Position numbers and translations under genes: made by a program. A DNA stretch of 64,000 bases from an uncultured Flavobacteriaceae bacterium (lineage in GTDB: Bacteria; Bacteroidota; Bacteroidia; Flavobacteriales; Flavobacteriaceae): contig CANLUH010000020.1 in the NCBI GenBank assembly GCA_947494205.1, forward strand, positions 1-64,000. Direction: 5' to 3'. Position 1 is the first letter of the stretch, and each line of letters opens with the position of its first letter. Below are positions 7,987 through 46,878 of the stretch, one piece after another. The notes beneath the pieces are model-generated. The model searched no databases. It saw only the letters and a program-made list of their open reading frames with translations, and had not been told where the DNA came from.

Positions 7987-8021
7987 AAAAAAGCCATTTT
8001 GAAAATTTCAAAATGGCTTTT
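7987..8021 (-). terminator. Intrinsic terminator after the DUF3467 gene and its repeat array
   Basis: A nearly perfect inverted repeat (AAAAGCCATTTTGAAA with TTTCAAAATGGCTTTT) is flanked by A/T runs. On the minus strand it lies directly beyond the last 87-bp repeat, so the DUF3467 transcript probably spans the whole array. The start of each repeat spacer (AATTGTAAAGGCATTTTG) resembles its first arm, suggesting the spacers derive from the original 3' flank. Confidence 0.8.
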
Positions 8022-8024
8022 AAT

Positions 8025-8458
8025 TATGCTTGTTCTATTGGCCCGAAGTTTAATGGCATTGGTGGTTGCTCTCCATAAAATGTCGAGCTACAACAAAATG
8101 CCTTTACAATTTATGCTTGTCCTGTTGGCCCGAAATTTAATGGCATTGGCGGTTACTCGCCATAAAATGTCGAGCTACAACAAAATGCCTTTACAATTTA
8201 TGCTTGTCCTGTTGGCCCGAAATTTAATGGCATTGGTGGTTGCTCTCCATAAAATGTCGAGCTACAACAAAATGCCTTTACAATTTATGCTTGTCCCGTA
8301 GGTCCAAAATTTAATGGCATTGGTGGTTGCTCTCCATAAAATGTCGAGCTACAACAAAATGCCTTTACAATTTATGCTTGTCCCGTAGGTCCAAAATTTA
8401 ATGGCATTGGTGGTTGCTCTCCATAAAATGTCGAGCTACAACAAATACCTTCAAAATT
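8025..8458 (-). repeat. Tandem array of five copies of the 3' end of the DUF3467 gene (period 87 bp)
   Basis: Units begin at 8025, 8112, 8199, 8286 and 8373; the next equivalent position is 8459, inside the stop codon of the DUF3467 gene. Four units are 87 bp and the gene-proximal one is 86. Read on the minus strand, each unit carries about 47 bases matching the last 15 codons plus stop of the gene (EQPPMPLNFGPTGQA), then about 40 bases of spacer. The spacer is nearly invariant except in the gene-proximal unit. The unit at 8112 has a CAA to TAA change and the one at 8025 has two amino-acid changes; all other differences in the copied codons are synonymous. The units adjoin directly, so this is not CRISPR. 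Confidence 0.95.
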
Positions 8459-8778
8459 TATGCTTGTCCAGTTGGTCCAAAGTTTAATGGCATTGGTGGT
8501 TGCTCGTAATCTTTGATTTCACCATGGGCTTTTTCAAAACGTTTTATATTATCGTTCAATGCTTTTAGTAATCTTTTAGCGTGTTGCGGTGTTAATATAA
8601 TTCTAGATTTAACTTTACTCTTTGGAGCACCTGGCATGATGCTAACAAAGTCTACAACAAACTCTGATACTGAGTGGTTTATAATTGCTAAATTAGAGTA
8701 AATACCTTCTGCTATTTTCTCATCTAATTCTATATTTATTTGCCCTTGTTTTGGCTTTTCATCTTTTTTATCTGCCAT
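8458..8778 (-). CDS. DUF3467 family protein
   Basis: A 106-residue protein matching the DUF3467 pattern: INIELDEKIAEGIYSNLAII, then SEFVVDFVSIMPGAPKSKVK and SRIILTPQHAKRLLKALNDN. The biochemical role of the family is unknown; a gene of this type commonly sits next to rpoC in Bacteroidota, as here. The N-terminus is charged (MADKKDEKPKQ) and the protein is probably cytosolic. It has its own leader after the rpoC terminator, with a small TTCCG/CGGAA inverted repeat at 8796-8811. The last 15 codons are the parent of the tandem array that follows the stop codon, which is exceptional. Confidence 0.9.
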   Translation of the reverse strand: MADKKDEKPKQGQINIELDEKIAEGIYSNLAIINHSVSEFVVDFVSIMPGAPKSKVKSRIILTPQHAKRLLKALNDNIKRFEKAHGEIKDYEQPPMPLNFGPTGQA

Positions 8779-23619: not shown

Positions 23620-25047
23620 CTATTCTTTAAATAACGAAGCGCGTTGTGTTAAATCTTCTATTAATTTTTCGTCTTCTTCACTTTCTAGTAATACATTGTA
23701 AGTATCCCAGAATTCTTTATTATAAGGTTTAGGCGAAAAGATATCTTTATCCCATTTTCCTTGTAGCGCTTCTTTTATTTTATCTTTATCTAAGATAACT
23801 TCAGAAAATAATATTTCTTGAATGGTATAATAATAACGTTCTTCTTTTTTATAGCGTGCTTCCTCTTCCTCTGTTAGTCCATCTTTTGCTTTACCTACAT
23901 TAACCAATTTTGGCGTTTCGTAATATATATAATTAGGATACATTTTGTCTTCGTATTCTTTATATGATATTACTAACTTGTGGTTAATTTGGGTATCGAA
24001 TAAACGTTTACTTCTTATTTTCTGAGATTTAGAGGCTGCTATCAACTCATATTCTATCTTTTTAATGGCATAATTATCCCAATAGATATAAACCCATCCA
24101 TTAGCTTCAAAGCCTTCGTTATAAATACCTTTAGTATCTAGCCCAACAAAATCTGTACTTTTAAGAATCTTTATTTTGTACAATTTTCTTTCGTTATCAA
24201 CTAAAACGGTATCTAATTCAAATTGATGCTTGTCTAGCATATTTTCTCCAAATAGCGCTTTTGCATTATTTGCATTACGAAGTAAGTTTAGTTTACCTTT
24301 AAAGATATTTTGTAAACCATTTACTCTGTTATCGTTCCATTTTATAGATTTTACTAAATCTGAAGTTTTAACTTGATCTCTTCTAATATCTTTTTTACCG
24401 TAACGTCTTTTGTTATTTTGATTTAAATAAGCTTGATAAGTAAATAGACTATCTACATCTCTTAAATCGTAACTTTTCCGAACTTGATCTACGTTTATTT
24501 TAAGGAAATTTTTAGATGTTGGTACTGTATACCCAGAATCGTAAACTGTAATAGCGCTTTCTATAAGCCACTTAAATTCGTTTTTATTGCGCTCCTTATG
24601 TCTTAAGAACCCTTTTTGCAGGTATGATGAATCAGGCATGTTTCTAGGTAATCGTTCTATAGCCCTTACCATAATATCATTACCTGTTTTAGGCCTTGGC
24701 TCTCCTACAATTAATACTTCTTCTAATGATGCTACTTCTTCTTCTAGAAAGATTTCGAAATCTGCATCATATTCAGAGATTGGAATTTTATAGGTAGAAT
24801 ATCCTATAGAAGATATTACTAACGAATCGTTTTCATGCCTTTTTGGTACTTGAAGAGAAAACTTACCATCTGCGTTAGTTATAGTTCCTATAGTTGTATT
24901 TTTAATATATACACTGGCACTTTCTATGCCTTCTCCTTTATTAAAGTCTACTACTTTATTCTTCAATTCTATTTGTGCAAATAGTGTGGAAGAACATATA
25001 CACAGTAGAATTAAAACTAGATATTTTTTGTAATTAGTTTTAAACAT
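23620..25047 (-). CDS. Exported carboxypeptidase-regulatory-like domain protein
   Basis: A 475-residue protein with signal peptide ending STLFA (residue 24), then a CarboxypepD_reg-like beta-sandwich at about 26-110 (NKVVDFNKGEGIESASVYIK, TNADGKFSL, VISSIGYSTYKI). The remaining 360 residues resemble the cell-envelope proteins that carry this domain in Bacteroidota without a TonB receptor barrel. Probably a periplasmic or outer-membrane protein of unknown function. It is monocistronic and ends at a hairpin terminator. Confidence 0.8.
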   Translation of the reverse strand: MFKTNYKKYLVLILLCICSSTLFAQIELKNKVVDFNKGEGIESASVYIKNTTIGTITNADGKFSLQVPKRHENDSLVISSIGYSTYKIPISEYDADFEIFLEEEVASLEEVLIVGEPRPKTGNDIMVRAIERLPRNMPDSSYLQKGFLRHKERNKNEFKWLIESAITVYDSGYTVPTSKNFLKINVDQVRKSYDLRDVDSLFTYQAYLNQNNKRRYGKKDIRRDQVKTSDLVKSIKWNDNRVNGLQNIFKGKLNLLRNANNAKALFGENMLDKHQFELDTVLVDNERKLYKIKILKSTDFVGLDTKGIYNEGFEANGWVYIYWDNYAIKKIEYELIAASKSQKIRSKRLFDTQINHKLVISYKEYEDKMYPNYIYYETPKLVNVGKAKDGLTEEEEARYKKEERYYYTIQEILFSEVILDKDKIKEALQGKWDKDIFSPKPYNKEFWDTYNVLLESEEDEKLIEDLTQRASLFKE

Positions 25048-25170
25048 TTTAAATGAGGTTTAATTTATTTAGAAACTATCAAGAGTGATGCCAATATAAA
25101 TGTTTTGTTTTAACTAACGCATTTTAAGCTTAATTATTGCATCATAAAAAGTTAGTATTTCTATCTCTAA

Positions 25171-25440
25171 ATTAATGTTTTACTGCTGACTTATACTCTT
25201 TTTTATCAATTACCATTTTGGCGATAATTTTTGGGTATTTTCGCCAAAACACTAATTCTTATTAATGTTTTACAGCTGGCTTATACTCTTTTTTGTCTAT
25301 TACCATTTTGGCGATAATTTTTGGATATTTCCGCCAAAACTCTAATTCCAATTAGTGTTTTACAGCTGGTTTATACTCTTTTTTATCAATTACCATTTTG
25401 GCGATAATTTTTGGATATTTCCGCCAAAACGTTAATTCCA
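25171..25440 (-). repeat. Tandem array of three copies of the 3' end of the acyl-CoA dehydrogenase gene (period 90 bp)
   Basis: Units start at 25171, 25261 and 25351, and the parent segment begins at 25441 in the gene; the period is exactly 90 bp. Each minus-strand unit holds about 60 bases matching the last 19 codons and the stop of the gene (end MVIDKKEYKPAVKH), plus a 30-base spacer with TTTTGGCG that can pair with CGCCAAAA of the copied part. The copy next to the gene is identical to it in the copied codons. The two distal ones differ at six sites, five of them synonymous; the spacers also vary mostly at third positions of the same frame. The stretch 25048-25170 to the left holds only the leader of the next gene. 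Confidence 0.95.
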
Positions 25441-25441
25441 A

Positions 25442-26614
25442 TTAGTGTTTTACAGCTGGTTTATACTCTTTTTTATCAATTACCATTTTGGCGATAATTT
25501 CTCTTAAAATTTCAGATGTTCCGCCTCCTATTGGTCCTAAACGACTATCTCTAAGTAGTCTTGCCATTGGATATTCTTCCATATAGCCATAACCTCCTAA
25601 CATTTGAAGACATTGGTAAATAACATCATCTGCCATTTTAGTAGAACGTAGTTTAGAAATTGTTGCTTCTTTAACTACATACTCTCCTTTATCTAATCTT
25701 GCAGTAACTGAATAATTAAACTCTTTACAAACTTCCATATCTGCATAAGCATCTGCCATAGTATGGCGTAGTGCTTGGAATGTATTTATAGATTTCCCAA
25801 AGGCATGACGTTCGGACATGTATTGCACAGCATATTCTAATGCAAATTCAGCTCTTGCGTGGGCATTTACCCCCATAATTAGGCGTTCTAATGCAAAGTG
25901 CTGCATAATGTATGGAAAGCCTTTATTTTCTTCACCCATTAAATTATCAGCTGGAATAATAACATTATCGAAAGCGATTTCTCCTGTATCTGATGCTCTC
26001 CATCCTAATTTATCTAATTTTGTTGCAGAAACTCCTGGTGTGTCTCTATCTATAATAAACATACTTATTCCCTTGTTTCCAAGTTCTGGATTCGTTTTAG
26101 CAGCTACAACTATGTAGTCACTGTATACACCGTTTGTTATAAAGGTTTTAGAACCGTTTATAACATATGTATCTCCTTTTTTAACTGCTGTTGTACGCAT
26201 TCCAGCAACATCACTTCCTCCAAAAGGTTCAGTAACAGCCATAGATCCTATTAATTCTCCTGTAATACTTTTGGTTAGGTATTTTTGTTTAATAGCTTCC
26301 CCTCCTTCTGCGTTAACGTGTGTCATTGCTAAATAGGCGTGTGCCCACATTGCCGCAGCAAAACCTCCAGAATTTATTTTTTGTAATTCTTCAAGAAAAA
26401 TTACTGTATAAAATAAATCTAAATCTAGACCTCCATAGGCTTCAGGATAAGCGATACCAAAGAATCCCATCTCTCCAAACTTCTCCCATATAAAACGTTC
26501 TATTACGCCCGTTTCTTCCCATTTTTCAATGTGTGGTACAACTTCTTTTTTTAAGAAATCTTGTAAACTCTCTCTAAATAATTGATGTTCTTCTGTGAAG
26601 TATCTGCTATCCAT
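25442..26614 (-). CDS. Acyl-CoA dehydrogenase, long-chain/isovaleryl type
   Basis: A 390-residue FAD enzyme that introduces the alpha-beta double bond in acyl-CoA, in beta-oxidation or branched amino-acid breakdown. FAD/substrate motifs are present (AVTEPFGGSDVAGMRTTA, TFITNG, GWRASDTGEIAFDNV, QMLGGYGYMEEYP). The usual catalytic Glu of the medium-chain type is replaced (IGGGTSEI instead of YEGT). A Glu in FALERLIMG is placed as in long-chain and isovaleryl dehydrogenases, so that specificity is inferred. It is followed by the unusual tandem copies of its own 3' end. It starts 21 bases after the helix-hairpin-helix gene, probably in the same operon. Confidence 0.92.
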   Translation of the reverse strand: MDSRYFTEEHQLFRESLQDFLKKEVVPHIEKWEETGVIERFIWEKFGEMGFFGIAYPEAYGGLDLDLFYTVIFLEELQKINSGGFAAAMWAHAYLAMTHVNAEGGEAIKQKYLTKSITGELIGSMAVTEPFGGSDVAGMRTTAVKKGDTYVINGSKTFITNGVYSDYIVVAAKTNPELGNKGISMFIIDRDTPGVSATKLDKLGWRASDTGEIAFDNVIIPADNLMGEENKGFPYIMQHFALERLIMGVNAHARAEFALEYAVQYMSERHAFGKSINTFQALRHTMADAYADMEVCKEFNYSVTARLDKGEYVVKEATISKLRSTKMADDVIYQCLQMLGGYGYMEEYPMARLLRDSRLGPIGGGTSEILREIIAKMVIDKKEYKPAVKH

Positions 26615-46815: not shown

Positions 46816-46878
46816 ACTGCGCTCAACCAGACAACGACTTACTACTTTCTGCTAACTGCTAACTGCTAACTGCTAACT
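46816..46878. repeat. Dispersed ACTGCGCTCAACC element and a 7-bp tandem repeat
   Basis: Between the TPR and barrel genes lie a copy of the ACTGCGCTCAACC(A/T)GACA element (46816-46833; another at 59838-59855) and four perfect tandem copies of GCTAACT (46851-46878). Both look like non-coding interspersed sequence. Confidence 0.8.

Follow-up and report, generated by a model that had tools for sequence, protein, structure and literature searches.

Why should a gene be followed by copies of its own last codons? The question is raised by an acyl-CoA dehydrogenase (ACAD) gene in a 64,000-nucleotide stretch of DNA (the window) from an uncultured member of the Flavobacteriaceae. The ACAD product matches PF02771, PF02770, and PF00441, all above cut-off. 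Past the stop codon lie three 90-bp units, each consisting of a spacer and a copy of the gene's tail; the array's last unit ends in a tail copy (Table 1). Tandem Repeats Finder delimits the repeat at 25170-25500 (period 90, 3.7 copies, score 557). On the minus strand, tails start at 25498 (within the gene), 25408, 25318, and 25228, exactly 90 bp apart, and the tail-copy score was reached in none of 200 shuffles.

An initial annotation, made from the sequence alone, had recognized this tandem array, and its presence holds. The "three exact 90-bp units" are indeed equal in length; in sequence, the three full units show 2 to 10 differences over 90 sites. The extent of the copied portion, given as the last 19 codons, was about right: the tail comprises 18 codons plus stop (57 nt), and 59 nt of the gene match. 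The spacer measures 33 nt rather than 30. The gene-proximal copy is identical to the gene over the copied codons, and the other two copies contain six variable sites as described, five synonymous and one changing Pro to Ser.

An assembly artefact is an unlikely source of the array, because arrays in relatives differ in sequence and copy number. Three genomes of the genus carry 3, 1, and 2 units, and relatives with arrays include Gelidibacter salicanalis and Lacinutrix neustonica, the record of the latter being titled a complete genome. Within its own genome, the array DNA matches a single place. The contigs of three other loci (L086, L095, and L118) stop 14-49 nt past the ACAD stop codon, the pattern that breakage of short-read assemblies at the array would produce; the L086 contig ends inside the hairpin described below, as does that of L025. 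Elsewhere in the window, positions 46849-46878 hold a perfect heptanucleotide repeat, CTGCTAA, in 4.3 copies.

Table 1. Coordinates of the two host genes, their tail copies, and the associated hairpins in the window
Feature	Position	Strand	Remarks
ACAD gene, array host	25442..26614	-	ORF, 390 aa
ACAD gene's own tail, source of copies	25442..25498	-	18 codons plus stop
ACAD hairpin 1	25388..25437	-	5' arm, spacer; 3' arm, tail copy 1
Tail copy 1	25352..25408	-	Identical to ACAD gene tail
ACAD hairpin 2	25298..25347	-	Model R1
Tail copy 2	25262..25318	-	Four synonymous differences
ACAD hairpin 3	25208..25257	-	Model R1
Tail copy 3, last	25172..25228	-	Three synonymous differences, one nonsynonymous; then single-copy DNA
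DUF3467 gene, host of second array	8458..8778	-	106 aa; PF11950, E 8.8e-35
Second array	8024..8505	-	Own 48-nt tail (8458-8505) plus five copies
First of five DUF3467 hairpins	8403..8448	-	Model R2 (own sequences in model)
Other DUF3467 hairpins	8316-8361, 8229-8274, 8142-8187, 8055-8100	-	Model R2
Terminator-like hairpin with T run, after last tail copy	7987..8021	-	Read from sequence

A second array of like design, absent from the initial annotation's finding on ACAD, follows a DUF3467 gene, unrelated to ACAD, in the same window. Tandem Repeats Finder delimits it at 8009-8505, with 5.7 copies of an 87-bp unit (five units of 86/87 bp). As at ACAD, the unit joins a gene tail, here the last 48 nt, to a spacer, here of about 39 nt, and does so five times; the copies start with the stop at 8372, 8285, 8198, 8111, and 8024. 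Directly upstream of the DUF3467 gene is what we take, from its translation, to be rpoC. ACAD and DUF3467 occupy opposite ends of one minus-strand gene cluster, whose members presumably include, again by translation, hpf, tuf, secE, nusG, rplK, rplA, rplJ, rplL, rpoB, and rpoC. The cluster also holds a CarbopepD_reg_2-domain protein, a XerC-type recombinase, and tRNAs.

What do the units have in common beyond the copied codons? The initial annotation had noted that the spacer can pair with the copied part. It does: TTTTGGCG and CGCCAAAA form the core of a longer stem, in which the spacer provides a 5' arm whose partner is the initial 16-22 nt of the following tail copy. Among the conserved features, this pairing is the principal one. 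It was evaluated between post-stop sequence and tail at 112 ACAD loci, four cut-off ones having been dropped and some genomes being present under two ids. Of 38 array loci, 32 pair at p<=0.05 (mean z -3.3); only 9 of 70 array-less loci do so (mean z -0.13), figures on which an ancestral arm lacking a tail copy was rejected. At DUF3467 the counts at the same threshold are 4/5 with tail copies versus 3/25 without. Because pairing is frequent with an array and rare without one, arm and tail copy evidently travel together.

Covariation supports the stem. Across 28 hand-chosen ACAD hairpins, 90.1% of the cells in 16 pairs can pair; this alignment omits the weakest and the shifted hairpins, and an earlier mixed alignment of 36 hairpins was set aside since its DUF3467 arms were misaligned. 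Double changes fill 30 cells, against 10.6 in shuffled alignments (0/500 as high), and eight pairs are changed on both sides, against a shuffled mean of 4.9 (12/500 as high). Sliding the partner by 1-3 columns lowers pairing to 36-60%. The noncoding arm tracks changes in the coding arm, as at columns 13 and 40, where G-C, A-U, and U-A all occur. Part of the noncoding 5' arm hardly varies, and some decayed copies (L119; the second copy of L122) keep their pairing through changes in both arms. In two Kordia loci (L105 and L116) the junction has shifted within the ACAD tail and the arm fits the new place, a pattern pointing to either an independent event or an arm templated anew. The model built on the ACAD hairpins, R1, recovers hairpin 1 with an E-value of 1.5e-8, its own sequence being included in the model.

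Which strand folds? In 27 aligned ACAD rows, G-T and T-G combinations number 53 and A-C and C-A combinations 2, with 205 and 225 pairs at risk; related rows in this count are non-independent, and one row per clade gives 28 wobbles and 1 A-C. Since wobbles so outnumber A-C mismatches, the sense strand appears to be under selection to fold at ACAD. For 24 of 28 ACAD hairpins, the predicted stability of sense RNA also exceeds that of antisense (mean -4.1 kcal/mol). The ACAD hairpins thereby display the two marks of a structured RNA, covariation and a one-strand excess of G-U over A-C. To judge from sequence, the folding strand is probably mRNA; single-stranded DNA of the sense strand would be expected to show a wobble bias of the same sign. 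The one-strand preference is absent at DUF3467, where 7 wobbles stand against 9 A-C mismatches (eight of the nine in two outer columns) and sense is more stable in 9/20 hairpins. The claim for RNA rests on ACAD, because the DUF3467 hairpins lack strand bias.

Are the copies, or the spacers, translated? The initial annotation had pointed to an open spacer frame in line with the copied codons and had hinted at a coding role. The frame is open as stated (LELTFWRKYPK, LELEFWRKYPK, *ELVFWRKYPK), except that the third spacer opens with a second stop. The hint itself fails. The first ACAD unit is a multiple of three in 13/30 loci, as are 24/65 units overall, about the chance level; extra stops stand at the start of some relatives' spacers; and conservation tracks the hairpin. 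Because unit lengths do not keep frame, the open frame is to be read as noncoding, and an in-frame coding spacer is ruled out by lengths and stops together. The codon bias within the tail copies is nevertheless supported. Among 68 of 73 distinct gene-copy pairs (five degenerate ones were dropped), 157 of 232 differences are synonymous and 75 nonsynonymous, with about 54 synonymous expected, although copies within one array are non-independent, so that a p-value on these counts exaggerates their weight; 161 of the 232 fall at third positions. Overall, the reading offered by the initial annotation is partly supported.

How widespread are the arrays? ACAD tail copies were found by gapped alignment in 28 of 77 named loci (80 in all, three of which end <50 nt past the stop), at a threshold score of >=36 that no shuffle in 200 reached; the next lower scores were 25. 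A gapless version of the test gave 25/80. Units measure 74 to 109 bp and number 1 to 7 per array. DUF3467 tail copies occur in 11 of 90 loci examined, drawn from 141 genomes with the gene (5/30 in one set; 6/60 in a second, 0/100 shuffles each); units in five of these loci measure 80 to 106 bp. On a tree of the 77 ACAD genes, built without the tail, the array label requires 15 changes, against a shuffled mean of 24, and well supported branches force 12. Array presence is therefore clustered, yet often gained or lost. The window's own ACAD gene groups with those of Lacinutrix and Bizionia. Because 49 of the 77 named loci have no detected array and the label changes at least 12 to 15 times, any function of the array must be dispensable. 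Presence is undercounted, since one locus scored as lacking an array (L107) holds a decayed unit visible by eye. Seven pairs with array-less sisters were aligned across the flanks in search of clean contraction, and most proved too diverged.

Among the genes sampled, the arrays also appear restricted to two hosts. No third host gene was found in 2.05 Mb (41%) of the window's own genome, comprising 987 and 690 genes, about 1,677 in all. Beyond the two arrays, two weak tail matches turned up in the 987 and one in the 690, and all three, on reading, were short or different repeats; controls with gene heads gave 6 and 1 matches. Nor did 330 same-cluster genes in 20 relatives yield a third host: of eight matches, seven lie at ACAD or DUF3467, and one is a reverse-strand ORF inside a DUF3467 array. 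The head controls also scored a group of short ORFs with repeated starts at C2:110066-113604 of the own genome (in L018), in a tandem unit of about 190 bp (MKKQILNLGKALNKAEQSEINGG...); these we take, from their appearance, to be double-glycine leader peptides of a bacteriocin family.

How might such a unit arise and persist? The recurring hairpins suggest a small structured element living on gene ends. In the model that we favor, and to which we give about an even chance on the sequence patterns, template switching during replication would make an inverted copy of the first part of the gene tail, followed by a further copy of the tail itself, yielding gene, inverted arm, and second tail. Units could then be gained and lost when the direct copies slip or recombine unequally. 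Through deletion, a copy may occasionally take over as the true end of the gene; protein selection would therefore act on the copies with no coding role for the array. The junction hairpin would be retained as a 3'-UTR element because the sense strand, likely post-stop mRNA, must fold; the simplest predicted role is in mRNA 3'-end formation or stability. One feature expected of a template-switch hairpin is present: one arm is the reverse complement of a nearby stretch, as the pairing and covariation of the arms indicate. Direct copies of the gene end, the mark of a tandem 3'-end duplication, stand past the stop at both ACAD and DUF3467. Template switching has been described as both creating and maintaining hairpin arms (PMC8794818, PMC8604942).

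Mutation might suffice by itself, with template switching making and re-perfecting the arms, slippage making the copies, and selection confined to the gene end, a possibility that we regard as doubtful. Much of the evidence is compatible with it. The freshest copies adjoin the gene (in 16 of 20 arrays the gene is matched more closely by the first copy than by the last, with the opposite in 4), and presence is patchy, as turnover predicts; the arm is gained and lost along with the tail copy; the DUF3467 hairpins lack strand bias; and both the creation of hairpins and the restoration of their pairing are known effects of template switching (PMC8794818). Strand-symmetric mutation, however, does not give the wobble excess at ACAD, nor does mutation account for pairing kept through two-arm changes in decayed copies or for the near-invariance of part of the noncoding arm. 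It also leaves unexplained why only two of about 1,677 own genes are hosts, both with relatives of like design in many genera. Purely mutational origin and upkeep thus explain most of the observations, except for the wobble bias, the two-gene restriction in the sample, and the pairing of decayed copies.

The feature explained least by chance template switching, and not predicted by template switching, is a shared motif. GA[AC]AT occupies the 5' shoulder in 20/20 aligned DUF3467 hairpins and GAA[AC]AT does so in 23/28 ACAD hairpins, with a like A/C alternation in both. By eye, the hairpins of both genes deviate from perfect gene complement opposite ATTA; the junctions of both arrays lie at ATTA in the gene, and the two shifted Kordia junctions, with their matching arm, at GATTA. 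These features would fit a sequence-specific element, in which an enzyme recognizes hairpins bearing the GA(A)[A/C]AT shoulder, works near the 3' ends of particular genes at (G)ATTA(T)CG-like sites, and copies tail and hairpin, a scenario that seems to us improbable. We hold it just as improbable that host codons are borrowed as the 3' arm, leaving the protein intact, and that the two hosts reflect independent colonizations. Against such an element, there are no dispersed copies, no cargo, and no match in phages or plasmids, and 1.26 Mb show no excess of hairpins of this type (6, versus 1 to 6 for control motifs). In 120 family genomes, strong matches of each model are restricted to its own host gene. 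Model R1 matches 11 of these at E<=0.01, ten at ACAD (for one, G095, the contig seems to continue the cluster) and one weakly (G057), at the end of another gene and unaccompanied by a tail copy. Among 148 genomes of the order, at E<=0.001, its three matches are the own locus, one beside ACAD (G133), and one (G229) dismissed as an unrelated perfect palindrome. Model R2 matches 26 of the 120 genomes at E<=0.05. Eleven of these matches have E below 1e-6, all at DUF3467, and the 15 weak ones (E 0.001 to 0.05) include G016, beside DUF3467, the single one whose position was read. A mobile element carrying the gene tail was likewise rejected, because no phage or plasmid matched and strong matches of both models lie at the hosts only. 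As for candidate enzymes, 14 genomes contain no integron integrase above cut-off, with weaker matches in 14/14 and equally in 14/14 control genomes; Y1 transposases occur in 5/14. Very unlikely, in our estimation, is that the hairpins form a cluster-type transcription terminator. ACAD hairpins do stand within about 10 nt of the stop in most loci, and are repeated; a terminator role has been proposed for clusters of hairpins (PMC8355165); and no intrinsic terminator (GC-rich stem plus T run) is found at 24900-25700. The stems, however, are followed by no T run, many relatives have no array, three DUF3467 loci start their hairpin 25-40 nt past the stop, and an ordinary terminator-like hairpin follows the DUF3467 arrays where these were read.

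Known systems share parts of this design. Integron attC arrays, too, line up hairpins in tandem, with covariation between the arms and with bases left unpaired on one side; the present loci differ in having no integron integrase above cut-off and no cassettes with differing cargo. REP/BIME and other palindromic repeats are extragenic imperfect palindromes, at times in tandem; the present units, in contrast, are not dispersed, their arms differ by host gene, and they include coding sequence. Phage and ICE attachment sites in gene 3' ends likewise duplicate a gene tail and leave the protein whole, but here no element lies between the copies, and the whole unit is about 90 bp. Rfam offers no family at gathering score for the array (best RF01823, on the other strand, 20.6 bits versus 37). 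Template-switch (quasipalindrome) hairpins resemble those described here in the inverted nearby copy, in arms that are kept alike, and in multi-base compensatory change; the gene-tail copy, tandem array, and codon-made arm are not described in the available parts of those reports (PMC8794818, PMC8604942). Post-stop hairpin clusters, in the available part of PMC8355165, are alike in placing several hairpins shortly after the stop codon, whereas here the 3' arm copies the gene's own codons and DUF3467 has a separate terminator. In the literature searched, most subscription journals lying outside it, no account was found of hairpins at gene 3' ends that draw on the codons of the gene itself. Such hairpins provide a natural setting for tracing, across many genera, how a template-switch hairpin arises and is later kept up when protein coding constrains one arm and leaves the other free to vary. 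If an enzyme underlies the shared motif, this would represent a new way for an element to occupy gene ends harmlessly.

Two further observations concern repeats. In Kordia sp. TARA_039_SRF (L129), the 108/109-bp units also take in about 40 nt similar to what lies downstream in an array-less Kordia locus (L146), which bears on how units form. Finally, a palindromic repeat, GTCA.TTCGAGT...TATCGAGAA, occurs in several places, including C2:236845-237064 of the window's own genome (in L184), and also downstream of ACAD in both of these Kordia loci; it is possibly a dispersed flavobacterial repeat.
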